Below are positions 1,221 to 19,843 of a stretch of 40,676 bases of DNA, in pieces; position 1 is the first letter of the stretch, and each line of letters starts with the position of its first letter. Under the pieces are notes generated by a model that saw only the letters and a program-made list of their open reading frames with translations, ran no database searches and was not told the DNA's origin. The stretch is from IMG/VR virus record IMGVR_UViG_3300025030_001713, positions 1 to 40,676 of that record; one strand, written 5' to 3'. Position numbers and translations under genes: made by a program. Source of the stretch: a virus.

Positions 1221-4200
1221 ATGCCCAACCTGGTCGACAACCCATTATTACTAATAAGTACCTCCGGCGACTTGACCGTCATGGACAGCTGGGGAAACAC
1301 GCCTGTAGTTTATCCTGGTGGCGCTGGCGTGGCCCCTGACAACTGGTGGATCCTCGGTGGACCGGACTATGGCACCTTCCTGGTTGCTGGTGGCGTCTGG
1401 TCTACCAGGGCCGTGAACGGTGGCCGCTCCATCGTATTGGACGCTGCTGATCCGCTGGTCCAGAACTCCGGGGGCGTCACCCAGGTGATCCCGGTACTGC
1501 AGGAAAGCATTAAGCCGATCCGGTTCTCGGCCTATGTTGCTGCCGAAGGTTGTCTTGGACAGCCGAACGTAGAAGTGATCTGCGTTGGGTACCCGCCAGG
1601 CTATCCCGGAGTGGGAAGCGGGGACCTCTTCTTTGAAACCGGTACTTATGACTTCGTACAGAAGCGAACCACGATAGTACCTACCCAGAAAGTTAAGTAC
1701 CTGTTTTTCCATCTACTCCACCGGGGCTTCTCAGCCGGCAAGGCCTGGTATGGAGCTTTTTCAGCCGAAGAGATTGATTTGCCTCAGGCCGAAATCCCGG
1801 CTGGCAACCTGACCATGAACCCTAACTTTGCATATACTCCCGATGGCACGGTGCCGACAGCCTGGAATACATCAAAGTGTTCTCTGGTCGACGAGCTGAG
1901 CCCGGTAGGTGTAACCAGTCTGCAGATGCTCCAGGGCGGATCCCTAAGACAGCGGGACGTGATTATTAGCCGGGGAACACTGAAGCATGAGATCACGGTC
2001 CACGTCAACGGATCAGCAGGGGCTCAGCTCAGGATCACGGCACAGCTCCGGGGCCGCTATCGTACCATCATCAGCGAGAACAGTGCCATAGTACAGGTTG
2101 GTAACGGCTGGACTACCCGTAAGATATCCTTGCTTGGCACGGCTTATAGTGAGAAGGTTGATATTCAGGTTGAGAGCCTTTCCGGAACCTGCTATATAGG
2201 GGCCGTGTTCTTAACCAGCAGCACGTTCACCCCCAGCCTGGTACTGCAGGCAGCGCCAGAACAGACCACGGTGGCCCTGACAACTCCGGCATATGACAGC
2301 ACTCAAGTGGTTGCCCTGGGTGGGTCGAAGGCCCCGGACCAGGTGGAATTCAACCCTGGCAATTATGAGGGTGACGTTTTCCTGTGCAACGGGCTCATGG
2401 GAAGCCTGGTGGCCACGTCCAACCGGGATGCTTTAACCTTCCTCCAGGAAGCGGAATTGCAAAAGCTCAGCGACACGGAATACACCCTGGCCCAGTGGCA
2501 GAACGGCATCCAGGAAGTCACAGTGGACGGCCAAGAGGTGGAGCAGTATCTCCGGATCCCGCATCTGGCTTTCGTGGATTTCTGGCAGATCACAGAGGGC
2601 GGGGCTATCCCGGGAGGGGAGACCCGTTACTACCTGGTTACCGCCTACAACGACAACGGGGAGACAGATAGAAGCAACGAGATCCAGGCTATCACCAGTG
2701 ATGCCACCAACACCAACCGGGTGCCCCTGGAGATTACCCCGGTAGAGGGGGCCAAGGGCTACCGGGTATATATGACCAAGAGCGTGGAGGATGACACGGA
2801 CCCGGAGGAATGGATCTACGCAGCTCACTATGTCAAGAAGCTGAAATGGGACGACGGGCTGGACCACTTGCTGTTCGATGTCACAGCCCAGCAGCTGCGC
2901 GATGCTGGGTACCTCTTGTACGACGACGGCCAGGCCTGCTCCCCGGGAACGCCTCCAGGTACCCACACGGCTACCAGGTGGACGGTCGACACGGATAACC
3001 AGAAGGTTATCTTTGACCAGGCCAGCGCCCCGGGATTAGGGAGTACGGTAGAATGCAGCTTCACAGTCAGCGAGAATATTAACTCCATTATCCACATCGG
3101 CCATGCCGGTGTTTTTTATGTGGCCGGTGATGCAGGGATCTATCAGTCCGATACCTATGTGCCAGACACCTTGCGGCTGGTCCTGGCAGAGAACGGGATC
3201 ATCGACCTGGATTACTACGGGTCAACCCTCTGGTACATGGTAGCTAACGGGGACATCAAGAACCTGGCCGGCCAGAGCTATCCCGGAGCCGGAGTGTTCA
3301 CCGGTTTCTGCTGGGTCGCGACATCGGAAATCGCCCGGATAACCGCTGACGGCACGGTGCAGGTGTTCAACCTGGCTGGCAATGTCCTGCGGTCAATTGC
3401 TCCGGAGATACCCACCCCGGATTGCATCGGGCTGGCGATCTACTTCGGGCAATATGTAACCTTTAACCGCGGGCAGGATAAGATCGTCTGTTTTGACAGC
3501 CAGGGCCGTATTACCAAGGTGCTTGATGAGCCGATTATCGGAATAACCACCTGGGGCCTCCAGGGAGTGAACCTGGTCACGGCAGCCAGTTTCGGGATGA
3601 CGGTATTCCGGGTTCTGGCTGACACCTATTACTCCCGGCTGGACCAGGGGGACTACATCGATGCCAATCCGAAGTATCCAGACTTTGAAAGACCCCGGCT
3701 ACCGGACGAAGTGGAGGATCCGGAATACCCGGAACTACTAGCCAATGGGACCTTTGAGGACGGATCCACATTCCCTACCGGGTTCAATGTCTACAAGTCC
3801 CCCGGCGCGGAATCGGGCTACTCATCAGAGGTAGCGGTCTCCGGAACCCGGGCTATGTATTTCTGGTTACCTCAGGACGCCTATGCCTGGGGTAGCTTAA
3901 ACAAATACGACCTGTCGGTGATTGGCGGCAGGCAGTATGTATTCTCACTGCGCCAGAAAGCCACGGCCTCAGCGGTCGGGGGCCTGAATGTTACCTGGAA
4001 GGACCGCCTGGGACAACAGCTTAGCTCCCCCTGGTGGTACTTTACCTTCGACACAGAATACACGCTGGAGGAATTTATCACCCAGGCCCCGGTCGACGCT
4101 GTGACCATGAACTTCCGCATCATGGAGTGGGGGACAGACCAGCAGGCGATAACCTATTTCCTGAACGCCCTCAGCGTCAAGGAAGAGATAGCGCCGGAGC

Positions 4201-6752
4201 AGACCTTTGAGCACATTTTCAATGGGACGTTCGAGGTCATGCCTCCCGGGGCAACCATGCCCAGTGGTTGGGAGATGGTCGGGGAATCACCGGGCCTGGC
4301 CGAAGTGTCTGTAGTAGACGCTACTATGCAGGAAGAAGGGGAAGCACTACGGATTGACCTTCCACCATTTGCAGAACTGGGATGGGTAGCGCTACAGAGC
4401 CAGCCCTTTGCCGTTACTGCGGGCGATTCCTTGCAGGCGACTTTTTACTTTAGGCGTGGCGTGAATACAGACCAATACTTTGCGGCTACAATCTACTACC
4501 TGCTGCCCAATGGCGGCTGGGGCGTAGACGAAAGCATGGGGGCCAATATCACCGATACGGCCACCGGAGGCAAGGTGGTTCTTAACTTCCCGGCTAACCC
4601 GGAGGGATATCCTACAGCCCGCCTGCGGATCTGGCCGGAGTATGATGATTCAAACTGGGTTGAGAACGTGTCCATCACCCCGCTGGTGGATCCAAGTAGA
4701 GTGGTCAACCCGGATTTCCTGGAGCAGATGACCGGCTGGAGTTCGAGGGGCTACGACATGGAGGACAATCTTCTTGACGATCTTGGAACGTCTGTCGTTG
4801 CAACCGGGCATGACACACCGTATTCCATCCAGCTTCTAACCGACTATCAGACCTGTAAGTATACCGAGCTGAGGCAGTACCTGGTATTCAACCAGGCCTC
4901 TCCGGTGCCTTTAGCCTTCGAAGCCTGGGCCAAGGGGCAGAACATTGCAGAAGGTTTGGGCCGGCTACAGTTCGGCATTGTGATCCAGTACAACGACGAC
5001 GAGCTGGTCTGGGATCCACTCGGAGCTGAGGAGGACTGGCCCACCGGGACGTTTGACTGGACGGAAAAATATTTGGAGTTTACTCCGGTAAAGCCGGTTA
5101 AGGGAGTATTTCTCAATATCAACCTGGTCAACTGGGGACTGGTACAGAACTTCCGGGCCTGGATTGACGAGGTCCGATGCTACGAACTGGCAAGCCCATT
5201 ACCGGTGGATGGCCTCACGCTGGACGTTCCTTACACAGAGTTGGGCGTGGACACCATTCCCCAGCTAAACATCAGCGCCCAGCTGACCAATGGCGGGAAC
5301 CCGGTGGAACAGGCCAACAGGGAGGTCGTCTGGTCTGCGACTCCGGACGTTGGTAACTTCCAAACCTTGAACACCAATGCTAAGGGGAAATCACGGGCCA
5401 TCTACACGTTGCCTGATCGTCCTTGCCAGGTGACCATCACAGCCACCCTGGGGGAAATCGAAAGCAGCGAAACGGTGACGGTATTCCCGCTAGTGAACAC
5501 CAGGGACCAGGAGCCGACTATCTCGGGATTGCCGGCGTCCATATCAACGGCTTATGTTGAAGTAATAGCACCCAAGGCCAGGAAGCCCTTGCCGGACGTC
5601 ACGGAGCGGATCGGGCGCTGGGAAGTATTCCGCCCAACCTATTACAATGAGCGGCAGCTGCTGGATTATGATATCCACTACAGCCCTCAGGACTGGGCCA
5701 TGGACCAGAACGTGTTCACGAAGCAGTACCCCAAGCAGATCTATTTCTTCTACAAGGACTGGCTGAGTGACTACCCGAGCGAAGTATCCTGGGGCGAGAT
5801 CATGAGCCAGCGTCCGGAGTGGTTCTGCTATAATGCCGTGGGCCTGGTCCACTGGTTTGGGGATCGCAGGTACGCATACAATTGGGGCAACATGGAGGCC
5901 TGCCAATGGTTCCTGGATCGCTGCCTACGGATGCATCCTTCCTGGTCGGACGGCTTGTATATCGACGACTACGGCGGGGAGACCAACTGGGATTCCATCT
6001 GGCAGACCTGGACCACGCAGGCAAGTGAACTGCTGAACTTCCGGAATGTCAAGGAGCGGCACCAGGCGCAGGCTACGATCCTCAATATCATGCGGAAACG
6101 GTTCCACAAGCGGGGCAAGTACCTGACCTGTAACCAGGGAGCGCCAAGGCGGTTCCTCACTAACGGCAACCTGGTTCCGGATGCAGAGATGATTGTTCGA
6201 CCATTTGACGGTCACCTGCTGGAGGTGTGGTGCTATGAATCATCGTTGGAGCCCCAGGCAAGACCGGTTGACAGCTTCCGGCTGGTGCCTAGTGTCATCA
6301 AGGATGAAATTGATTTCATCAAATGGTGCGGTGATAACAACCAGTTTGTAGCAGCCTTGGCCCGGAGCGGCCCCCAATGCTGGGAGGCGAGGATGTTCGC
6401 CCTGGCGGCCTTCCTGATGGGCAAGCATGCTAATTCCTATTATTTTCACAGCGGCTGGAACATGATTAATGACGAGGGGGCCTGGCTGGAGCCCTACGGG
6501 GACCTGTGGCATGGTCTGCTGCTACCAGAGATGGTGATCCGGACTGGTCAACCAACGGGGAATTATCAGCTCACAAATTGGTTGTTTAGTCGCGAGTTTG
6601 AAAACTGTGTGGCTTTACTCAATCTGAACGAAGTAGCTCAGGCCTACACATTGCCGGCAGGCACCTGGTACTCCATGCGGGGCCAGGAATATTCAGGTGA
6701 GATTGCGGTTGGGTGGCGCCAGGGCCTGGTCCTGGTTAAAGAGCGCCCATGA
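1221..6752 (+). CDS. Large modular tail protein with CBM-like modules and a C-terminal glycosidase-like domain
   Basis: This 1843-residue protein is probably a tail fibre or spike that binds and may degrade surface glycan. From N to C: a jelly-roll module (about 1-190), a similar one from about 197 opening with MNPNF, an FN3-like segment (about 450-530), beta-propeller-like repeats (about 620-800), three further CBM4/9-like modules opening with NGTFE or NPDF (near 838, 1000 and 1160), and an invasin-like Ig domain (about 1340-1430). The last 390 residues resemble glycoside-hydrolase-like TIM barrels (GHL15-type), with the acidic motif DGLYIDDY at residues 1577-1584. The ATG follows an AGGTGA ribosome site. 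Whether the barrel is catalytic cannot be seen from sequence alone. No signal peptide is present, as expected for a virion protein. Confidence 0.8.
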   Translation: MPNLVDNPLLLISTSGDLTVMDSWGNTPVVYPGGAGVAPDNWWILGGPDYGTFLVAGGVWSTRAVNGGRSIVLDAADPLVQNSGGVTQVIPVLQESIKPIRFSAYVAAEGCLGQPNVEVICVGYPPGYPGVGSGDLFFETGTYDFVQKRTTIVPTQKVKYLFFHLLHRGFSAGKAWYGAFSAEEIDLPQAEIPAGNLTMNPNFAYTPDGTVPTAWNTSKCSLVDELSPVGVTSLQMLQGGSLRQRDVIISRGTLKHEITVHVNGSAGAQLRITAQLRGRYRTIISENSAIVQVGNGWTTRKISLLGTAYSEKVDIQVESLSGTCYIGAVFLTSSTFTPSLVLQAAPEQTTVALTTPAYDSTQVVALGGSKAPDQVEFNPGNYEGDVFLCNGLMGSLVATSNRDALTFLQEAELQKLSDTEYTLAQWQNGIQEVTVDGQEVEQYLRIPHLAFVDFWQITEGGAIPGGETRYYLVTAYNDNGETDRSNEIQAITSDATNTNRVPLEITPVEGAKGYRVYMTKSVEDDTDPEEWIYAAHYVKKLKWDDGLDHLLFDVTAQQLRDAGYLLYDDGQACSPGTPPGTHTATRWTVDTDNQKVIFDQASAPGLGSTVECSFTVSENINSIIHIGHAGVFYVAGDAGIYQSDTYVPDTLRLVLAENGIIDLDYYGSTLWYMVANGDIKNLAGQSYPGAGVFTGFCWVATSEIARITADGTVQVFNLAGNVLRSIAPEIPTPDCIGLAIYFGQYVTFNRGQDKIVCFDSQGRITKVLDEPIIGITTWGLQGVNLVTAASFGMTVFRVLADTYYSRLDQGDYIDANPKYPDFERPRLPDEVEDPEYPELLANGTFEDGSTFPTGFNVYKSPGAESGYSSEVAVSGTRAMYFWLPQDAYAWGSLNKYDLSVIGGRQYVFSLRQKATASAVGGLNVTWKDRLGQQLSSPWWYFTFDTEYTLEEFITQAPVDAVTMNFRIMEWGTDQQAITYFLNALSVKEEIAPEQTFEHIFNGTFEVMPPGATMPSGWEMVGESPGLAEVSVVDATMQEEGEALRIDLPPFAELGWVALQSQPFAVTAGDSLQATFYFRRGVNTDQYFAATIYYLLPNGGWGVDESMGANITDTATGGKVVLNFPANPEGYPTARLRIWPEYDDSNWVENVSITPLVDPSRVVNPDFLEQMTGWSSRGYDMEDNLLDDLGTSVVATGHDTPYSIQLLTDYQTCKYTELRQYLVFNQASPVPLAFEAWAKGQNIAEGLGRLQFGIVIQYNDDELVWDPLGAEEDWPTGTFDWTEKYLEFTPVKPVKGVFLNINLVNWGLVQNFRAWIDEVRCYELASPLPVDGLTLDVPYTELGVDTIPQLNISAQLTNGGNPVEQANREVVWSATPDVGNFQTLNTNAKGKSRAIYTLPDRPCQVTITATLGEIESSETVTVFPLVNTRDQEPTISGLPASISTAYVEVIAPKARKPLPDVTERIGRWEVFRPTYYNERQLLDYDIHYSPQDWAMDQNVFTKQYPKQIYFFYKDWLSDYPSEVSWGEIMSQRPEWFCYNAVGLVHWFGDRRYAYNWGNMEACQWFLDRCLRMHPSWSDGLYIDDYGGETNWDSIWQTWTTQASELLNFRNVKERHQAQATILNIMRKRFHKRGKYLTCNQGAPRRFLTNGNLVPDAEMIVRPFDGHLLEVWCYESSLEPQARPVDSFRLVPSVIKDEIDFIKWCGDNNQFVAALARSGPQCWEARMFALAAFLMGKHANSYYFHSGWNMINDEGAWLEPYGDLWHGLLLPEMVIRTGQPTGNYQLTNWLFSREFENCVALLNLNEVAQAYTLPAGTWYSMRGQEYSGEIAVGWRQGLVLVKERP

Positions 6753-9432: not shown

Positions 9433-9600
9433 ATGTTAACCGTTCAACTTACTGAAATGCAAAGAAAAAATCTGTTAGTTTTTCTTGGCCGGATACAGCT
9501 ATCTGGCTTAGAGGCAAGAGCATTTATGGAGATAGTCCAAGCTGTTGAAAATGCTGATGCTAAGCCAACAAAAGAAGAATCAAGGAGTGGTGATAGTTAA
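9433..9600 (+). CDS. Small phage protein (55 aa), unknown
   Basis: An ATG lies about nine bases after an AAAGGGG ribosome site and opens a 55-residue frame directly after the tail tip gene. The product begins MLTVQLTEMQRKNLLVFL and is predicted to be mostly one long amphipathic helix with a charged C-terminus. Its last 21 bases overlap the end of the convergent minus-strand gene. No family is recognised. Small helical proteins at this position are common in Clostridia prophages. Confidence 0.65.
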   Translation: MLTVQLTEMQRKNLLVFLGRIQLSGLEARAFMEIVQAVENADAKPTKEESRSGDS

Positions 9601-10266
9601 GGTCTTATTTTCTTGGTCAATTTGGTATCCAGTAATGATGCCTTTGCTTTGAAGTTCGGAGAGTAATATAAAATGGCGATGAGCAACGTAAATAACAGGA
9701 TCTCCGAGAACATAATTTACTTCATTAGAAGAATCAAAGTCGATTAATTTTTGCGTTCCCGCCGGATCGGAATAAAGAATTATTTGCTTGGTATTTCGAT
9801 CCCATGCGACTGAAATACCAAGACTATACTCAATTCCTAGCAAAGCAACGTAGACAATATTTGGAGAAGCCATAATAACTTCTCCTTCTTGAAGTAGTTT
9901 ATTTATGGTGGGATTTTCTATTTGGTAATATTGAATCTCCGGCTGCGGCACACTATCGCCTCCCATTGGCACAGATTTACTTGTCTCAATTATACCAGAA
10001 CTTGGGGTCTCTGCAGCAACAGGTTGAACTACCTGTTGAGTAATAGTTACCGATTGGGTTGCATCATCCCACTTCACTTCAGCACCCAGGGCCTCCGACA
10101 CAACCCGGATAGGCACGAATACCCGGTCCCGGATCATCTGTGGTGCCGGGTCGGAGGGGACTTCCTTCCCATTTACGATCAGGCGGATGGCCTGGGGCGC
10201 GGCAACAGCAGTAGCGGCGGTGGCCAGGATGAGGCCAACAACAAGACCGGCGAGAAACTTTTTCAA
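9580..10266 (-). CDS. Secreted copper-amine-oxidase-N (stalk) domain protein
   Basis: The start chosen is a TTG at 10266, nine bases after AAAGGAG; longer frames start before this ribosome site. The 228-residue product opens with KKF, a hydrophobic core (LAGLVVGLILATAATAVAA) and an apparent AAP signal cleavage site. Residues about 26-75 form a stalk domain: IRLIVNGKEV, then VPIRVVSEALGA and VKWDDATQSVTI. The remaining 150 residues are unassigned and end in a beta-rich region. It is the only gene read leftwards between tail and lysis genes, so it probably has its own promoter and may be expressed in the lysogen as a cell-surface (conversion) protein. Stalk domains are common in host surface proteins of Clostridia. 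Confidence 0.85.
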   Translation of the reverse strand: MKKFLAGLVVGLILATAATAVAAPQAIRLIVNGKEVPSDPAPQMIRDRVFVPIRVVSEALGAEVKWDDATQSVTITQQVVQPVAAETPSSGIIETSKSVPMGGDSVPQPEIQYYQIENPTINKLLQEGEVIMASPNIVYVALLGIEYSLGISVAWDRNTKQIILYSDPAGTQKLIDFDSSNEVNYVLGDPVIYVAHRHFILLSELQSKGIITGYQIDQENKTLTITTP

Positions 10267-10319
10267 TGCGATCACTCCTTTGGGTACCATTATATCCAAT
10301 AAGTGGGGGAGGTGAAACC

Positions 10320-10600: not shown

Positions 10601-11128
10601 TTGATTGGAGTTATCGATGCCTTTGTCATGGTGATTGACCGGGTTATGAAAGATAGGATTGCTCAAATAGGCGGGGTTCTACTCGGCATACTAACCTATC
10701 TGGTAGAGCCTAACGCAGCGTTCTACGCCTTGTGGATTGCCGTGGTCCTGGATCTGATCAGCAGGATAATTGTCGAAGCGGCTCACGCCGGTGGGTACAT
10801 AAAAGCAACCAAGGAACGAAAAATCTGCAGCGATAAAATGTTTGTCGGGTCCGCGATCAAAATCGTGGCCTATTTTTTTATGACGGTCATCGTTTACCAG
10901 AGCAAACATTTGGTCGCATATGAACAGGTGCCACTTTTGCTAAGCACCGTCGTATACGGGATTTTGTTTTGGGTTGAGTTCCATTCAATAACTGAAAATT
11001 TTGTAGAAGCTGGGGTAGAGGAGCTCCGGCCATTGTTATGGCGGATCAAGCGGGAGCAAAAGCGTTTTGAGGACGGAGAGGAACCGCCGGCATCGGTAAC
11101 AGGTGGGAGGGATGGCCGTGGAGATTAG
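10601..11128 (+). CDS. Phage holin-like membrane protein
   Basis: The TTG start follows GAGGAAGGGGG by about nine bases. The 175-residue protein has three or four hydrophobic segments: IGGVLLGILTYLV, FYALWIAVVLDLISRIIV, AIKIVAYFFMTVIVY and LLLSTVVYGILFWV, and a charged cytoplasmic tail of about 45 residues. Layout and length fit the toxin secretion/phage lysis holin family (PF05105 type), which forms membrane lesions that let the endolysin out. It overlaps the amidase start, consistent with a lysis operon. Its tail (KREQKRFEDGEEPPAS) is longer than in many holins. Confidence 0.75.
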   Translation: MIGVIDAFVMVIDRVMKDRIAQIGGVLLGILTYLVEPNAAFYALWIAVVLDLISRIIVEAAHAGGYIKATKERKICSDKMFVGSAIKIVAYFFMTVIVYQSKHLVAYEQVPLLLSTVVYGILFWVEFHSITENFVEAGVEELRPLLWRIKREQKRFEDGEEPPASVTGGRDGRGD

Positions 11129-11891
11129 AAAGATGCTACTGACTTCCGGTCAGGGTGGTAGGCCTGGAAAGAAGGTCACCCCCAAGGGACTGGTTATACA
11201 CTGGACGGCTAACGAAAACCCTAAGGCTGATGCAGTAGCCAATCGGAACTACTTCGAAAACCACCCTCAGAACAAGGTGAGTGCTCATTACATTGTTGAT
11301 GACTGCCAGGTTGTGCAGTGCTTACCCGAGGATGAGCTTGGCTATCACGTGGGCGCCAAGCAATATAAGCCAGCTGCCCTAGAACGGTTATCATCCTATC
11401 CCAATGACTGCACCATTGGGATAGAGATTTGCGTCAACCGGGACGGCAATTTTAGCAAGACCTATCAGAATTCTGTTGCGCTGGCAGCTGACATCCTTCA
11501 TCGCCGTGGGTGGGGAGCGGATCGCCTCTGGCGCCACTTCGATATTACCGGGAAAGATTGCCCCCGGTTTTTTGTTGATAATGGTACGGCCATTTTTTAT
11601 GGTTTTAGTTCTGCTTCAGCCGGCTGGGACCGGTTCAAGACGGACGTAGTAATTGCTTTGGTGAACCTTCAACAGGGAAACAATCGGGTTGAGACCGCGA
11701 AGGAGGTTGAAGTGGTGGCGGAAGGGATACGGCTCATCATCAAGGGCAAGGAAATGAAGCCAGACGTGCCGCCGCAAGTGGTCAAGGTACCCGGCGGGGA
11801 TTGCGTGATGGTCCCACTTCGGTTCGTGTCCGAGGCATTGGGACACCGGGTTAACTGGGATGGACCAACAAAGACGGTATCTATAGATTAA
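11118..11891 (+). CDS. N-acetylmuramoyl-L-alanine amidase (endolysin) with C-terminal stalk domain
   Basis: The start is a GTG six to seven bases after GGGAGG, inside the end of the holin gene. The 257-residue product carries an Amidase_2 (T7 lysozyme-like) domain over about residues 20-165: zinc-ligand region VIHWTAN (His28), SAHYIVDD, and the closing motif RHFDITGKDCPR with a further His and Cys. It would cleave the amide bond between MurNAc and L-Ala in peptidoglycan. The C-terminal 55 residues are a copper-amine-oxidase-N domain (IRLIIKGKEM, VPLRFVSEALG, VNWDGPTKTVSI), probably the wall-binding part. There is no signal peptide, so release through the holin fits. Confidence 0.92.
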   Translation: MEIRKMLLTSGQGGRPGKKVTPKGLVIHWTANENPKADAVANRNYFENHPQNKVSAHYIVDDCQVVQCLPEDELGYHVGAKQYKPAALERLSSYPNDCTIGIEICVNRDGNFSKTYQNSVALAADILHRRGWGADRLWRHFDITGKDCPRFFVDNGTAIFYGFSSASAGWDRFKTDVVIALVNLQQGNNRVETAKEVEVVAEGIRLIIKGKEMKPDVPPQVVKVPGGDCVMVPLRFVSEALGHRVNWDGPTKTVSID

Positions 11892-12811: not shown

Positions 12812-12842
12812 AACCCCGGGTCGTATAACCCGGGGTTTTTCT
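12812..12842 (+). terminator. Strong rho-independent terminator ending the late operon
   Basis: AACCCCGGGT at 12812-12821 and ACCCGGGGTT at 12828-12837 form a perfect 10-base-pair stem around a six-base loop, followed by a T-tract. It isolates the lysis operon from the AT-rich island that follows. Confidence 0.92.
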
Positions 12843-13157
12843 GATTCTATAATATAATATTTGACTTTATTAACGTATATATTGGGAAAACAGTAAAGTT
12901 GGTTTATAGGTTTATTTTTAAGGTGAAAAACACAAAATTGTGCATTATAAGTTAATTATTGTCAAGGAAAAAGAGGAATTTGTTGGTTATATGTTGTATA
13001 CGGTTACAAAAGCAGAATTCCTTCTTTGTTTATCATTATTTCTTAATAATAGATAAAAACCTTAACATATCCATCAGGCAAGGGCAACTTTAGGCCTGAA
13101 TATTAACGTTATGGCAGCTGCTGAGGAGGATTTAAATAAGTTTGGAGGTGTTAGATT
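12843..13157. promoter_or_regulatory. AT-rich leader of the methyltransferase island
   Basis: This 315-base stretch holds no gene of normal size. It is strongly AT-rich. TGCATTATAA at 12941-12950 matches the repeat in the phage operator region (20761-20770) exactly over ten bases. A 16-codon frame starts at ATG 13111 and ends in an ATGA overlap with the methyltransferase start; it may be a coupling leader peptide. A GGAGG ribosome site at 13144-13148 precedes the ATG at 13158. No consensus promoter is evident, though several TATATT/TATAAG-like boxes are present. Confidence 0.45.
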
Positions 13158-14306
13158 ATGAGGACAGGTCACCCTATAGGGATAGACCTGTTTTGTGGCG
13201 CCGGAGGCATGTCACTTGGTTTTGAACAAGCTGGTTTTGAGATTGTGGCTGCAGTTGATGCAAGTCCTATACATATTGATACACACAAAAGGAACTTTCC
13301 AAAATGTAAAACAATTTGTACAGATATTTCAAGTTTAAACGGAGAGAAGCTCCTAAATATAGCAGACTTAAAACAAAAGCAATTAGATGTACTTTTCGGT
13401 GGTCCACCTTGCCAAGGCTTCTCGATGGCGGGTAAGAGACGTTCGAATGATCCAAGAAGTTTATTATTCTTAGAATTTTCACGTCTGATTAAAGAAACAA
13501 TGCCACTATATTTCGTCGTTGAAAACGTTGCTGGCTTAATTGCCGGAAAAACCAAAACAATATTAGAACAATTTATTAATGAGGTTATAAAGGCCGGATA
13601 TATTATCTTAGAACCGGTTCGTATACTTGACGCCTCTGAATTTGGTGTGCCTCAGCAACGCAAACGCCTATTTATTATTGGTTGTCTTAATGGTCTTCAA
13701 CTTCCTGACTATCCATCGATAAATGTGGGCGAGAGCTCTACAACCGTGTGGGATGCCATTGGTGATTTGCCTAATGTTGACGACTATCATTACCTTCTTA
13801 CATCGGATGTCTATATGGGAGAACTAGGTCTATGGAGTGAATATTCAAAAACACTTCGTGGATTAGATGAAATGATGGCTAGTTCTAATAAATTCCGAGA
13901 AAAAAGGAATGGTTTAAGTGGATGTTCTCGTGTCGTACACTCTCCCGAAGTAATCAAACGGTTCTCTGAAACAATACCCGGGACATGCGAACCTATTAGT
14001 AGGTTTTATAGACTAGCAAGTCAAGGAGTTTCGAATACTATCCGTGCAGGTACAGATCGAACACATGGTGGTTTTACTGCACCTAGACCGATTCATCCTA
14101 TATATCCACGTTGTATTACAGTAAGGGAGGCGGCAAGACTTCAATCTTTCCCTGACTGGTTCACCTTTCATCCTACAAAATGGCATGGTTTTCGTGAGGT
14201 TGGAAATTCTGTTCCTCCTTTATTAGCACAAACGGTTGCCGCGGAAGTACTAAAATGTATATATAGGTTGAGGGGTGAAACATTAATTAAGAAAGAGGTT
14301 ATTTAG
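13158..14306 (+). CDS. DNA (cytosine-5)-methyltransferase
   Basis: The 382-residue product contains the ordered motifs of C5-cytosine methyltransferases: motif I (GIDLFCGAGGMSLGF, residues 8-22), motif IV with the catalytic Cys85 (GGPPCQGFSM), motif VI (ENV at 122-124), motif VIII (QQRKR at 166-170), and motifs IX-X near the end (VREAARLQSFP, GNSVPPLLA). All key residues are present, so it should be active, moving methyl from SAM to cytosine in duplex DNA. The target-recognition region is about residues 190-320; its sequence specificity cannot be read. It is the first gene of a tight three-gene operon (stop directly followed by the next ATG). Codon use is much more AT-rich than the phage core, a sign of transfer. 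Confidence 0.95.
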   Translation: MRTGHPIGIDLFCGAGGMSLGFEQAGFEIVAAVDASPIHIDTHKRNFPKCKTICTDISSLNGEKLLNIADLKQKQLDVLFGGPPCQGFSMAGKRRSNDPRSLLFLEFSRLIKETMPLYFVVENVAGLIAGKTKTILEQFINEVIKAGYIILEPVRILDASEFGVPQQRKRLFIIGCLNGLQLPDYPSINVGESSTTVWDAIGDLPNVDDYHYLLTSDVYMGELGLWSEYSKTLRGLDEMMASSNKFREKRNGLSGCSRVVHSPEVIKRFSETIPGTCEPISRFYRLASQGVSNTIRAGTDRTHGGFTAPRPIHPIYPRCITVREAARLQSFPDWFTFHPTKWHGFREVGNSVPPLLAQTVAAEVLKCIYRLRGETLIKKEVI

Positions 14307-15632
14307 ATGAGGGATGAATCTCTTAGAATTGACGCTTCCCCAACTAAAGATTTTTTTATATACATGCTCACGAAGGATATCGATCTAATTCGTGCAATAG
14401 CAGATCTTGTTGATAATAGTGTTGACGGTGCGAGGAGAATTAAGGGAAATACGGAGTATGAAGGTTTAGTTATTCGCTTAGAAGTACTAGCTACCCATTT
14501 TAAAATACACGATAACTGTGGCGGAATTCCTATTGAAATAGCACGCAAGTACGCTTTCCGTTTTGGAAGAGTCAAAGGAATGCCCGAAACGCCTTATTCT
14601 ATCGGTCAGTTTGGCGTTGGCATGAAAAGAGCTTTATTTAAATTAGGTAACATATTTAATATTGAATCTGTGACCTCAACATCTAAATTTAGTGTTGAAG
14701 GAAACGTTCAGGAATGGGCAAAAGATAAAGATAATTGGGATTTTATTTTTAGCGAATTAAACGAGAGTTTTCAACCTATGAATGATCAAGTTTATACATC
14801 TATAATAGTTACTGAACTTCATACGTCTGTATCAGAGGAATTCTCTTTAGAAAACTTCCAAAAACGTCTTTCTTTAGAATTGGAAGCGGCGCATCAGTAT
14901 AGTTTAAACGAAGGTCTTATTATTACTCTTAATGGAATACCACTTACCTTTCGTCCAGCTCAGCTACTCAGTTCAGATGAGCTTAAGCCAGCATTTGTGG
15001 AAAAGGAGATTATTATATCTGGCAAAGTTAAGATTAGTATTAAAATATACGTGGGTCTAGCAAAGTCTGATCCCCAAAATGCAGGGTGGCATGTTTTCTG
15101 TAATGGCAGATTAATTTTAGAGGCAGATAGATCACGTACTACTGGTTGGGGTGATGGAAGTATACCTCAGTTTCATAATCAATTCGCTAGATTTCGAGGC
15201 TATACTTTTTTCGATTCTGATGATGCTAGTTTATTACCTTGGACAACTACAAAAAGTTCTGTAGATACTGGTTCTCCGGTTTTTAGGGAAGTTCGTTTAG
15301 ATATGTTAACATTAATGCGCCCCGTTATTGATTTTTTAAACCAGATGGAGAGAGAGAGAAAGGGTCGCGATGATAATACAGATCCAACGCCCTTGGAACT
15401 TATTATAAACGAAGCTAAATCCGTAAATCTTTCAGATGTTGGACAAACGCGTGCTTTTATAGCTCCCAAACTAAAAACTGAATCAACTCCAAAAATAAGA
15501 ATGAATAAAATTCAATATAGTAAACCCACAGAAGAAATCGATCGCGTTAAATCTGTCCTGAAGGTTTCTTCGCTTAAAGAAGTAGGTGAAGAAACTTTTG
15601 ATTATTTCTTGAGGATGGAGTGCGAAGATTAA
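14307..15632 (+). CDS. GHKL (MORC/MutL-like) ATPase of the methyltransferase island
   Basis: The 441-residue protein begins directly after the methyltransferase stop. Residues about 20-130 form a HATPase_c_3 domain: N box IADLVDNSVDGA (31-42), HDNCGGIP (69-75) and the lid/G-box IGQFGVGMKRALFKLG (99-114). The usual general-base Glu before the N box is Asp33 here. Residues about 230-350 hold a transducer-like part with FCNGRLI and LPWTTTKSSVD, whose Lys fits the ATP-contacting lysine of GHKL proteins. Families of this type are linked to restriction-modification systems (Iyer, Abhiman and Aravind on MORC origins). No nuclease domain is visible. ATP-driven dimer clamping on DNA is the likely mode of action (inference). 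Confidence 0.88.
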   Translation: MRDESLRIDASPTKDFFIYMLTKDIDLIRAIADLVDNSVDGARRIKGNTEYEGLVIRLEVLATHFKIHDNCGGIPIEIARKYAFRFGRVKGMPETPYSIGQFGVGMKRALFKLGNIFNIESVTSTSKFSVEGNVQEWAKDKDNWDFIFSELNESFQPMNDQVYTSIIVTELHTSVSEEFSLENFQKRLSLELEAAHQYSLNEGLIITLNGIPLTFRPAQLLSSDELKPAFVEKEIIISGKVKISIKIYVGLAKSDPQNAGWHVFCNGRLILEADRSRTTGWGDGSIPQFHNQFARFRGYTFFDSDDASLLPWTTTKSSVDTGSPVFREVRLDMLTLMRPVIDFLNQMERERKGRDDNTDPTPLELIINEAKSVNLSDVGQTRAFIAPKLKTESTPKIRMNKIQYSKPTEEIDRVKSVLKVSSLKEVGEETFDYFLRMECED

Positions 15633-16594
15633 TGAAACCAAGTTATAAGAAAATAAATTATGCGTTAAGACCAGCAAAATGTATTGAAAGAAAAATGCTT
15701 TGTGAAGCCTTCCGATGTCTCTCTGATTTTAGGTACGTGGAATCATATAGATATATTGGATTCGGTTCTGTATATTTTTCGGATTTTACTCTTTTTCATA
15801 AGGAACTCAATTTATGTCAAATGAAAAGTATCGAACATAATGAAGATGATAAAGATAGATGTGAATTCAACCGACCATTCCAATGTATTGACCTAATTAT
15901 TGGAGAATCCACAGATATATTATCTCAAATTGATTGGAATGAAATATGCACAATAGCTTGGTTAGATTATGATGATAAATTAACAAATCAGGTCTTAGCA
16001 GATATAAAGTTAGTATGTTCTCACTGTTCACCAGGAAGTATCATAGTGATAACGGTTAATGCACAACCTATTGCATATGAAAAAGATGGAGAAGACCGCG
16101 AAGCTAGAATGAATCAATTAATAAAACAAATTGGAGAGGAGAAAATTCCAACTTATATAAGGGAAAATGACTTGATAGGTTGGAAATTAGCCGGTGTTTA
16201 TAAAAGAATAATTCAAAATGAAATTGAAGAGACCCTAGTAGTTAGAAATGGAACAAGACCATCCAATCTTAAGATTCATTATCGTCAGTTATTTAATTTT
16301 AATTATGCTGACGGTGCAAAAATGTTATCTACAGGTGGTATTATTTATGATGAAGGGCAGACAGGAAAGTTGGAAGGATGCGGATTTAATAAATTATCAT
16401 TCATCAAAAATGGGGACGATCCATACTTAATAGAAGTTCCTAATTTGACCTTGCGAGAAATCCGATATCTAAACTCACAATTACCTACATCAGATCCATC
16501 TTCCTTAATAAACCACGGTTTATCATTAGATGATGTCGAGAAATTTGCCAGAATATACAGGTATTTTCCATCTTTTGCTGAAGCCGACATATAA
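15632..16594 (+). CDS. Rossmann (SAM methyltransferase-like) third protein of the island
   Basis: The ATG at 15632 overlaps the ATPase stop (TAATG); an in-frame GTG at 15620 is an alternative. The 320-residue product has a class I methyltransferase look: motif I-like YIGFGSVYFSDF, an acidic strand end SIEHN, and an IAWLDYDDKL strand at the motif IV position, followed by SIIVITVNAQP. This resembles bacterial 'O-methyltransferase-like' proteins of unknown substrate. The C-terminal 120 residues (NFNYADGAKM, FIKNGDDPYLIEVPNLTLREIRYLN) are unassigned. The strict coupling to a DNA methyltransferase and a GHKL ATPase suggests a shared defence or modification role; catalysis on DNA, protein or nothing at all (sensor) cannot be told apart from sequence. 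Confidence 0.75.
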   Translation: MKPSYKKINYALRPAKCIERKMLCEAFRCLSDFRYVESYRYIGFGSVYFSDFTLFHKELNLCQMKSIEHNEDDKDRCEFNRPFQCIDLIIGESTDILSQIDWNEICTIAWLDYDDKLTNQVLADIKLVCSHCSPGSIIVITVNAQPIAYEKDGEDREARMNQLIKQIGEEKIPTYIRENDLIGWKLAGVYKRIIQNEIEETLVVRNGTRPSNLKIHYRQLFNFNYADGAKMLSTGGIIYDEGQTGKLEGCGFNKLSFIKNGDDPYLIEVPNLTLREIRYLNSQLPTSDPSSLINHGLSLDDVEKFARIYRYFPSFAEADI

Positions 16595-16918
16595 CCAGGC
16601 AGTCTTTAAATCATGGTAATAAACCCCTGTATTGCTACCTGAGTTTTTCTTATCTTGGGCACTTATTCTAAACGAAAGTGGGTGTATATCTTTTTAAGTT
16701 GCCAATTATATTCGGTGAACAATCTTATAACCACAGCGTTATGTCTTACCAAGGCTTTTATTATTTTACGGGTATAAACCGCGGCCCGAATCACGGCCCT
16801 TTTTGCCAAATGCCCCCTAACATTGACCCACACAGGGCAACGCGAAAATCTAGCAATATCAAGGCTTTCAGGGTTTTTGTCTTGCCGTGTAAGGGCTCCA
16901 AAGAGGGGGTAAGACTAA

Positions 16919-16963
16919 CTCCAAATCCGTTGGTTGCGGGTTCAATTCCTGTCTCCCCTGCCA
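16919..16963 (+). other. att core: 3' part of a tRNA-Trp gene (no intact tRNA)
   Basis: Bases fit tRNA positions 32 to 76: loop CTCCAAA with anticodon CCA (Trp), half of the anticodon stem TCCGT, T-arm GCGGG-TTCAATT-CCTGT, acceptor strand CTCCCCT, discriminator G and CCA. The 5' half (matching acceptor AGGGGAG and stem ACGGA) is absent, so this is not a functional tRNA but the segment the phage carries to rebuild the host gene on integration. Confidence 0.85.
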
Positions 16964-16976
16964 AAAGAATGTAGAC

Positions 16977-17042: not shown

Positions 17043-18170
17043 TCACGGCCCTTGCTCATTATTTTCTGGTTCGTCTTTTTTACTGACTTGCATTATTTGC
17101 TCAAACCGGTCGGCCACCTGGCGGGGGCTGCTAGGCATAACGTGACCGTAGATATCTGACGTGATGCTGGATTGTTTATGTCGTAATCTTTCCTGGACAG
17201 TGGCTAATGGCTGGCCATCGTTTAGGAGCAAGCTAGCATGGGTGTGCCGCAGGCCGTGAAAGGTCATATCCAAACCAGCTTTAGCCGCTATCTTTCGGAA
17301 CCTAGCGGATACATTCTTAACCTCATGCGGCGTGTTGTTTTTGGTGGGGAAGACCAGGCCTTTAGCTTTCTCTGCTTTGATTGACCGTAACAATTCCACC
17401 AGCTGGGCTGATATGTCTATAGATCCAGTGCTGTGGGCCTTGGGCTCGCTGAATACCAGCTCAGACCCTTCTTCTTTTTTAACCCGCTGGACTTTTCTAC
17501 GGATCTGAATAATCCTGTTATCCAGATCCACGTCCTCCCAGTGTAGCGCTAGAACCTCTCCCAACCGCATCCCTGTGTATAAAGCCGTAAATATTAAGGA
17601 GTAATCGTTATACTCCTTAGCAACTTCAAGCAGCTTGGCGATATCTTCGAGCCTGGGCATGGCGAATTTCTGTTTTTCGATTTTGGGTTTATCCACAGCT
17701 TTAACAGGATTAAACCGGAGCATTTGCATTTTGATCGCAAACTCCAGGGCTTCATGCAGCACGGTTAGGTGGTAAGCCACTGTCCGGGGGGCCAGTTCAG
17801 CTTTGAGCTTATCAGTTTTATACTTGCTGATGCTAATGGGCTTGAGGTCCTCCAAGCGGATAGCGCCCAGGGCGGGGGTGAGGTGGACCCGGCAAATCAT
17901 TTCATAACTTTCGTATGTACGCGGCGCCAGCTGCGACCTGTGATCCTCCAGCCACTGGGTTAACAGCTCTTTAACGGTGGTTTTAATTGGCTTGACAAAC
18001 GTGCCCTGTTCTACTTCGTTAATCATCCGGAGCATTTCCGCTTTAGCTTCTGGCCTGGGGCCTTTAAAGCTTATCCGGATACGATCCCGCTCTCCGTTTT
18101 CATCGCGGCCTTTGTCTATTACTATAATCCAGCTGGACTTATAACGCTTTTCAAGATGCCCTGTTGCCAT
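17043..18170 (-). CDS. int: Site-specific tyrosine recombinase (phage integrase)
   Basis: The 375-residue product has the three-part integrase layout: an N-terminal arm-binding domain (about 1-55, beginning MATGHLEKRYKSSW), a SAM-like core-binding domain (about 60-150, TVKELLTQWLEDH) and a catalytic domain (about 170-360). Catalytic residues are visible in TGMRLGEVLALHW (Arg), FHGLRHTHAS (His, Arg), RLRHKQSSIT (His) and the nucleophile Tyr in SDIYGHV. It is transcribed towards attP and its end overlaps the right arm repeat, which assigns the attachment site to this enzyme. It should catalyse integration into a tRNA-Trp gene. The excisionase candidate is at 23180. Confidence 0.95.
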   Translation of the reverse strand: MATGHLEKRYKSSWIIVIDKGRDENGERDRIRISFKGPRPEAKAEMLRMINEVEQGTFVKPIKTTVKELLTQWLEDHRSQLAPRTYESYEMICRVHLTPALGAIRLEDLKPISISKYKTDKLKAELAPRTVAYHLTVLHEALEFAIKMQMLRFNPVKAVDKPKIEKQKFAMPRLEDIAKLLEVAKEYNDYSLIFTALYTGMRLGEVLALHWEDVDLDNRIIQIRRKVQRVKKEEGSELVFSEPKAHSTGSIDISAQLVELLRSIKAEKAKGLVFPTKNNTPHEVKNVSARFRKIAAKAGLDMTFHGLRHTHASLLLNDGQPLATVQERLRHKQSSITSDIYGHVMPSSPRQVADRFEQIMQVSKKDEPENNEQGP

Positions 18171-18181
18171 GATGTCACCCT

Positions 18182-18754
18182 TTACATTGCGTTTTCAAAC
18201 TGAATTTTATAACTATCAGCTGCTTCAATATCAGCTTTTATTGTAGAGTCAAATGACTTCGTTTGTCCGCTACTGAAATTAGTGATGATAATAGGGCCAG
18301 TACCTATTAGCTTATTATTGGCGTCATAGAGACTCATCGTGAACGTAACAAAAGAATAAGATTTACCTGAGCTATTGACCATCTCTCCAATACCGTCTAC
18401 ATAACCGTAGCTCTCACTAAAACTTATATTCCCGTAATAGAACCCGCCACCAGCGTCCTTTAATTCTTGTGATGTCTTACCGCTTGCAGCTGCACTCTCA
18501 CCTATACTAACAGTCCAGGTGGATCCGTCCCAGTTTACCTGCTGGCCAAGGGTTTCAGCTACAAACCGGACCGGTACCATAGTCGTACCCTCAAAATTAA
18601 TCGCCGGCACCTCACCTGTATACTTCTGGCCCTCTACAAAGACATTAACAATTGGGTAACTTTTGTAATCCCCGTTTATTGAGGCTGCAGTTACCGCCCC
18701 TACCACGCCCGCCAGTAACAGAACTGTCAAAAACCCAACAAGACCTTTTTTCAC
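18182..18754 (-). CDS. Secreted protein with stalk and FxLYD domains
   Basis: A GTG start follows AAGGAGGGG by eight bases. The 190-residue product has a signal peptide (KKGLVGFLTVLLLAGVVGA, cleavage near AVTAAS), a copper-amine-oxidase-N domain (PAINFEGTTMVPVRFVAETLG, VNWDGSTWTVSI; about residues 35-85), and a C-terminal FxLYD domain (FTMSLYDANNKLIG, about 105-185). It is the third stalk-domain protein in the window. Its place in the leftward operon between the integrase and the ImmA/IrrE peptidase suggests expression from the prophage and display on the host surface. Function beyond that is unknown. Confidence 0.85.
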   Translation of the reverse strand: MKKGLVGFLTVLLLAGVVGAVTAASINGDYKSYPIVNVFVEGQKYTGEVPAINFEGTTMVPVRFVAETLGQQVNWDGSTWTVSIGESAAASGKTSQELKDAGGGFYYGNISFSESYGYVDGIGEMVNSSGKSYSFVTFTMSLYDANNKLIGTGPIIITNFSSGQTKSFDSTIKADIEAADSYKIQFENAM

Positions 18755-19373: not shown

Positions 19374-19604
19374 TTACTTCATAAACTCTTGAAGGTTTTC
19401 TATTGCTAAATTAGCTTGACGAAGGATAGATTGCAATGTGCCGGGGGGTAGCATGTTTTTACCGTGGACAGGAACGACAACTAGACCAGATAATTTGTCC
19501 TTTCGTAAATAATAGTGGCTTCCACGTATATGGGTAACTGTAAACCCGCCCCGCAAGAGCGCTTTGACAACTTCTTTTCCGCTTAAGCGAGGCAGCTTGG
19601 TCAC
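19374..19604 (-). CDS. hicA: HicA-type toxin (mRNA interferase)
   Basis: The 76-residue product is a full-length HicA: LSGKEVVKALLRGGF, then the catalytic His30 in the GSH motif (HIRGSHYYL), and VVVPVHGKNMLPPGTLQSIL with the usual PxHG and GTL signatures. HicA folds as a double-stranded RNA-binding-like domain and cleaves mRNA. Its ATG overlaps the hicB stop by four bases, giving antitoxin-first order (hicB-hicA). As a phage toxin it may hold the prophage in place or act in superinfection exclusion. Confidence 0.93.
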   Translation of the reverse strand: MTKLPRLSGKEVVKALLRGGFTVTHIRGSHYYLRKDKLSGLVVVPVHGKNMLPPGTLQSILRQANLAIENLQEFMK

Positions 19605-19843
19605 GGAGTTGCAACTTCCAGTTCTACTAATTCGGCTTTAATATCTCCGGACGGGAATGGCATACCTTCCTTTTCCGCGGCCTCAAGGTAGCCAATTATT
19701 GCTTCCCTGGTCTGGTCCAATGCCTCTTCACGTGTTTTCCCGTAGGTTGATAGGTAATTAAATGCAGGTACATGAGTCACCCAAACACGCTCTACAGAAT
19801 CCCATTCTATTAGCACACTATAGTGGGTTATCCTCTTGGGCAC
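19601..19843 (-). CDS. hicB: HicB-type antitoxin
   Basis: The 80-residue product fits the short HicB class: YSVLIEWDSVERVWVTHVPAF, the GKTREEALDQTREAI helix and a terminal strand. The GTG start lies ten bases after AAAGGA, inside the last codons of the repressor gene. The C-terminal DNA-binding domain of longer HicB proteins is missing, so autoregulation by itself is unlikely and expression probably depends on the repressor promoter. It should bind and neutralise HicA. Confidence 0.9.
   Translation of the reverse strand: MPKRITHYSVLIEWDSVERVWVTHVPAFNYLSTYGKTREEALDQTREAIIGYLEAAEKEGMPFPSGDIKAELVELEVATP

Follow-up and report, generated by a model that had tools for sequence, protein, structure and literature searches.

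In animals and plants, MORC ATPases are enigmatic silencing clamps. An association of their prokaryotic relatives with methylases in restriction-modification (R-M) loci was predicted in 2008, when the partners described were helicases and nucleases, with a minority of loci having no helicase (Iyer, Abhiman and Aravind, PMC2292703). A survey of HEPN domains in 2013 then found that some paraMORCs of R-M loci carry a fused Ymh-type HEPN domain, for which a PrrC-like role was proposed (PMC3710099), and the HEF_HK / Response_reg_2 loci were found to carry a C5-methylase and Vsr (Bellieny-Rabelo et al. 2021, PMC8011034). PD-lambda-5, a validated defence protein, is regarded as R-M plus abortive infection in a compacted, prophage form (Vassallo et al. 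2022, PMC9519451). The present analysis deals with a three-gene island at positions 12843-16594 of the virus record IMGVR_UViG_3300025030_001713 of IMG/VR (positions 1-40,676; this whole stretch of 40,676 nt is called the window). The island encodes a DNA cytosine-5 methyltransferase (M), a MORC-type ATPase (A) and a protein of the family PF20553 (X). On balance we favour reading this trio as a prophage-borne, nuclease-free and modification-linked immune cassette, in which M would mark self, A would sense and X would be the effector.

The trio resembles each of its described neighbours in part. With the prokaryotic MORC and paraMORC loci (PMC2292703) it shares the GHKL and S5 architecture of the ATPase, the S5 signature and the linkage to a cytosine methylase and Vsr, but a PF20553-type partner is not mentioned there, whereas X is near-obligatory here and the island has neither helicase nor nuclease. 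PD-lambda-5 is likewise prophage cargo with a logic of methyltransferase plus effector, and its C-terminal domains occur fused to the ATPase in a sister clade of A; the ATPase of the window has no such C-terminal domain, and X stands in that place. Membership of the trio in PD-lambda-5 was rejected, as neither A nor X gave a PADLOC match at E ≤ 1 and only the fused sister clade matches. The HEF_HK / Response_reg_2 loci share an HATPase_c_3 ATPase, a cytosine methylase and Vsr, but the third protein of the trio has a methyltransferase fold instead, and neither PF19191 nor PF19192 matched the island proteins at E ≤ 1. BREX and DISARM are similar as modification-linked defences, and one A-X copy lies inside a DISARM operon; the DISARM core genes drmA/B/C are not among the genes of the island, and BREX and R-M follow a similar logic, but the trio has neither nuclease nor helicase. 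The modifier of BREX is PglX or, in some types, the PAPS (3'-phosphoadenosine 5'-phosphosulfate)-reductase protein BrxP, alternatives that parallel an exchange of M for a PAPS-reductase-like protein at A-X loci. MzaB of the Mza system gave no PADLOC match to the ATPase of the window and a weak one (4.7e-4) to a relative, L099. Type II R-M is represented by the cytosine methylase, seen by both Pfam and PADLOC, and membership in it was rejected since neither the island nor the annotated cassettes of the P2-like, lambdoid and Pf type hold the cognate endonuclease. PADLOC recognised M alone among the island proteins, with no model for A or X, and a full-text search, which left out many subscription journals, supplements and bioRxiv, found no paper on PF20553 in defence. 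To judge from these searches, the X-containing trio appears not to have been described in the literature or in PADLOC, while the link between MORC and methylases is already known, as the initial annotation of this DNA had correctly stated.

Recurrence of the trio carries much of the argument. Patterns of the ATPase alone were used to scan viral contigs, so that the choice of loci was independent of M and X, and 70 loci were returned. X lies directly downstream of A in 69 of these, the exception (L071) having a longer ATPase, and a 5-methylcytosine (5mC) methylase is found no more than four genes away, again in 69/70, the exception (L017) starting at a contig end. With plasmid, phage and genome loci and the window added, the collection forms 41 clusters at 85% ATPase identity. 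Since the same three families recur in many unrelated contigs, the trio is not a chance grouping. The initial annotation had allowed that the third gene might prove unlinked elsewhere, or that the trio might match a named system gene for gene; instead, the trio recurs outside this phage with strict linkage of X to A, and PADLOC offers no model for either protein. The reverse search, made with PF20553 alone in 398 genomes of the phylum containing the Lachnospiraceae locus, found the family in four (1%), the centre genome among these; in all four A adjoins X, with M in three and a PAPS-reductase-like gene in one. So rare and patchy a distribution is expected of mobile cargo. Searching the contigs for X gave nothing further: the multi-sequence alignment offered no stretch of sufficient conservation to scan with, and queries with single X sequences brought up no additional loci. 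The nearest relative of the window trio (L084:6889-12602, ATPase 58% identical) has as neighbours another 5mC methylase and an open reading frame (ORF) of 241 aa, possibly a restriction enzyme, with no PADLOC match. On pSymA of S. meliloti (L003:8920-13975), Vsr, a 5mC methylase and an REase_II-type gene lie near the ATPase, beside which stands a 372-aa ORF (containing VEAKQ), and the PF20553 gene is split by an IS66-type insertion.

Within the trio, the tightest bond is that of A and X, which in 23 of the 41 clusters share an overlap of 4 nt or 1 nt, while the placement of M is of four kinds, before or after the pair and in either orientation. In the 35 complete trios, pairwise distances gave a Mantel r of 0.91 for A-X and of 0.52 for both A-M and X-M. 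By these comparisons A and X form one, translationally coupled unit, with M as the exchangeable part. Two genomes of the same family have an operon of a PAPS-reductase-like protein, A and X (L001:7004-10276 and L099:6262-9552), in which the PAPS proteins, similar to BrxP and SspD, are 69% identical, as against 44% for A and 35% for X. These operons may be a form of the system linked to phosphorothioate modification. In a Microvirga locus (L004), the only one within a DISARM operon, the A-X pair adjoins an MmeI-like methylase. On the ATPase tree the PAPS pair falls in a clade of 13 (support 100/95) and the DISARM copy is sister to L029 (support 100/100), both among M-linked lineages, and to judge from this nesting the modifier beside A-X has probably been swapped.

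The effector position would seem to be exchangeable as well. In L071 and L088-L091, the latter four being the nearest relatives of the window methylase and coming from a separate viral scan, a methylase is followed by an ATPase of 581-624 aa and there is no PF20553 gene. These longer ATPases form their own clade on the tree and have extra C-terminal domains, for which Pfam gave no named domain. L090 and L091 share 64% identity in their first 365 residues, after which no similarity was detected, and their C-terminal domains match the C-terminal part of PD-lambda-5_A (1.8e-17 for L090 and 1.4e-54 for L091); the matches of L088, L089 and L071 are weak, at about 3e-4 to 5e-3. Since ATPases that have no X carry PD-lambda-5-type domains, domains of a defence protein take the slot of X elsewhere, and the effector slot is, as far as these alignments go, exchangeable between the two. 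These five ATPases have a Pro-rich or repeat linker as well as the exchangeable domains, and in L091:7088-8962 the linker has a very long stretch of repeated NDP/NNP tripeptides that is possibly variable in length.

Related trios are present in up to 224 of 5426 complete Escherichia coli genomes (about 4%). In the P2-like prophages of this species the trio fills precisely the interval that separates the portal gene from the replication-endonuclease gene, which is the tin/old position, a known defence hotspot (PMC9519451; PMC9122126). A second version, carried by O157:H7 and other strains in a lambdoid-type prophage, was found at ≥99% identity in 173 E. coli genomes, with ≥80% of the query covered in 172 of them, so that no decay is visible. 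In the Pseudomonas phage PfAC20 the trio occupies the Pf accessory region, where other Pf phages carry Gabija, Avs, IetAS and others, and a 2025 study of these phages entered the PfAC20 locus as an incomplete R-M system (PMC11878078). Hotspot position and the effector swap with PD-lambda-5 domains together strengthen the defence reading, and the proposal that this may be an undescribed defence system is supported, as a prediction, on both counts.

The features of the individual proteins are in keeping with these roles. A matches phrog_20521 (2.2e-74), and its AlphaFold2 model, built from an alignment of the window and related loci, has a mean predicted local distance difference test (pLDDT) score of 90.6, with Foldseek matches to Hsp90/TRAP1, SMCHD1 and MORC2/3. 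The GHKL ATP-binding motifs are conserved (D36-N37-D40, D69-N-C-G-G73 and G100..G103-x-G105-M-K-R), in line with the full HATPase_c_3 signature noted initially, and the first residue of the N-box is D, not E, in 40/41 ATPases. Model and Foldseek matches also place an S5-fold (transducer) domain at the C-terminus, where the MORC S5 motif reads GWHVFCNGRLI at residue 260; the pattern GhXhhpXXRhl is present in 40 of the 41 ATPases, as against 2/820 shuffled copies and 8/304 other long ORFs. On the strength of the S5 fold, the MORC-specific motif and the Foldseek matches, the modelled A is a prokaryotic MORC by the criteria of Iyer 2008. M keeps the motifs GPPCQGFS, ENVAG, QQRKR and GNSVPP intact, as had been claimed for all its methyltransferase motifs, and matches the PADLOC MTase_II profile at 4e-138. 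It is the best conserved of the three proteins, with residues 181-260 as its least conserved region in 35 trios, as expected of a target-recognition domain. The Vsr genes beside M in several loci are what active, constitutive 5mC methylation would lead one to expect, and in a minority of relatives (L003, L067) an REase_II gene, by PADLOC, adjoins M.

PF20553 covers residues 8-323 of the translated ORF of X at 349.8 bits, compared with a curated cut-off of 27; the Pfam label of the family, "putative O-methyltransferase", was not used as evidence of substrate. The model of X, made in the same way as that of A, has a mean pLDDT of 90.5 and shows a class I S-adenosylmethionine (SAM) methyltransferase fold, Rossmann-like and seven-stranded, and the matches listed by Foldseek against the PDB are almost all SAM methyltransferases. 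Among these the best query-normalised template modelling (TM) score is 0.44, for the tRNA methyltransferase Trm1. Profile searches of the PDB by sequence, for X as for A, gave no convincing solved relative. Motifs I, II and IV are conserved in 35 sequences: a GxG glycine loop, E/D68 as the acidic residue that ends strand 2 (35/35) and W-L-D-Y at strand 4, in which D112 is conserved in 97% and Y113 in 91%. Thus, the resemblance of the third protein to a SAM-dependent Rossmann enzyme, noted initially from the sequence, is borne out. An effector or a second modifier had been proposed for it, and of the two an effector working with A seems to fit X better than a further enzyme that marks self. Broken copies of X beside A and M (L003 with its IS66-type insertion, L037 and L086) hint that X may be a costly component, three cases being too few for more.

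In the mechanism we propose, M would methylate cytosines at its target sites on host and prophage DNA and so provide the self mark, while A, as an ATP-gated clamp of the MORC type, would act with X as a sensor-effector unit. On meeting unmarked DNA, such as that of an incoming phage, A would close as a dimer driven by ATP and would activate or deliver X, which would then modify nucleic acid, either RNA or DNA, and stop the infection, possibly abortively. RNA as the substrate is a guess, for which the Trm1 score is the sole basis. That the trio has defence activity is very likely in our estimation and self-marking by M is likely, while the role of X as an active effector is favoured with less assurance. 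More tentatively, and short of an even chance, a MORC clamp with a PF20553 methyltransferase may be a general module that reads self through any paired modifier (5mC, and perhaps phosphorothioate or N6-methyladenine), in which "restriction" is a methyltransferase reaction and the effector slot is interchangeable with PD-lambda-5-type domains. Several points weigh against the immune reading. The function of the cassette is predicted from linkage, position, folds and motifs; the Mantel test separates shared ancestry from co-evolution incompletely; the TM-scores of X to known enzymes in the PDB list are modest, at 0.29-0.44, and it is from its fold and motifs that SAM binding and catalysis are predicted. 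The argument from effector exchange depends in part on two strong matches, the other three being weak, and in L003 and L067 M, by its gene neighbours, has a part in conventional R-M as well.

Phages often carry orphan cytosine methylases, and with no nuclease in the island and a methyltransferase fold in X the trio could be a means of solitary modification, in which M shields the phage genome from host restriction and A and X assist, X adding a second methyl mark. This is unlikely, as A-X is the tightest pair and M the member that is exchanged, with a PAPS-reductase-like enzyme or DISARM found in its place; moreover, the sister clade swaps X for PD-lambda-5-type domains and not for another modifier, and anti-restriction explains the P2 hotspot placement less well. 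It is more doubtful still that A-X assists a type II restriction endonuclease whose gene lies elsewhere or was lost, most phage copies being remnants. The REase_II genes of L003 and L067 would fit this, as would G236, where a second 5mC methylase and an adjacent unidentified ORF are close to the trio, but the trio alone is what most loci have in common, the P2 copies are tightly bounded by the portal and replication genes, and the near-complete coverage of the lambdoid-type trio speaks against remnants.

Two further proposals give the proteins quite different tasks. X might be a SAM-binding sensor that gates the ATPase and triggers when SAM-degrading enzymes of a phage deplete SAM, the cassette thereby guarding a methylation-based defence; the SAM-fold motifs of X are conserved and no substrate family is known, but the conservation of D112 and Y113 in motif IV suggests catalysis, and we hold this idea to be improbable. 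As the island adjoins the integrase and eukaryotic MORCs silence chromatin, M and the MORC clamp might also switch prophage genes off or on and play no part in immunity. Trios in P2-like, lambdoid and filamentous phages and at chromosomal and plasmid loci, one of them in DISARM, have no lysogeny circuit in common, which makes such a regulator the least probable of these alternatives. If the immune cassette is real, PADLOC has missed one that about 4% of complete E. coli genomes carry, a methyltransferase would be the attacking and not the protecting arm, and the role of MORC ATPases with DNA methylation could be studied in a compact bacterial setting.

The layout of the island is given in the table below, with the gene order M, A, X on the plus strand between 13158 and 16594.

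Features of the island and its flanks in the window
Feature	Position	Strand	Details
Terminator-like hairpin, end of upstream late/lysis region	12812-12837	+	10 pairs, 7 GC pairs, T-rich tail
AT-rich non-coding leader of island	12843-13157	+	
M, DNA cytosine-5 methyltransferase, putative self-marking component	13158-14306	+	382 aa; PF00145 4e-70
A, GHKL + S5 ATPase, prokaryotic MORC type	14307-15632	+	441 aa; HATPase_c_3 2e-7
X, PF20553 (Methyltransf_35), proposed effector	15632-16594	+	320 aa from ATG at 15632; PF20553 1.9e-104
Integrase gene, downstream flank of island	17043-18170	-	

The initial annotation had described three genes joined end to end, AT-rich against a GC-richer phage core and with no recognisable nuclease, and the joints are as it stated: neighbouring genes abut or overlap, the start of A abutting the stop of M and TAATG combining the stop of A with the start of X. 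GC is about 0.33-0.40 in the island, compared with 0.50-0.58 across much of the phage structural region, and no nuclease is encoded among the island genes by translation or by Pfam and PADLOC profiles. The proposed position between a late terminator and attP (the phage attachment site) holds for the terminator-like hairpin and is not confirmed for attP. A segment near the integrase gene (16880-16966) resembles the 3' half of a tRNA and is an attP candidate; in the window as a whole ARAGORN detects no complete tRNA, and a scan with the integrase for an empty-site comparison found two distant relatives only. No promoter was identified in the leader, promoter-like matches in this region being no commoner than chance.

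Elsewhere in the window, a protein of 1843 aa (1221-6752) that adjoins the gene for a prophage tail endopeptidase has a C-terminal GHL15 glycosyl-hydrolase-like domain. A predicted endolysin, an amidase (11103-11891), has a C-terminus that resembles, by eye, the copper-amine-oxidase N-terminal domain, which Pfam finds in the window proteins at 9580-10299 and 18182-18754, minus strand. The lysogeny region has a HicA-type toxin gene (19374-19843, minus strand), next to which a small upstream ORF possibly encodes the HicB antitoxin.

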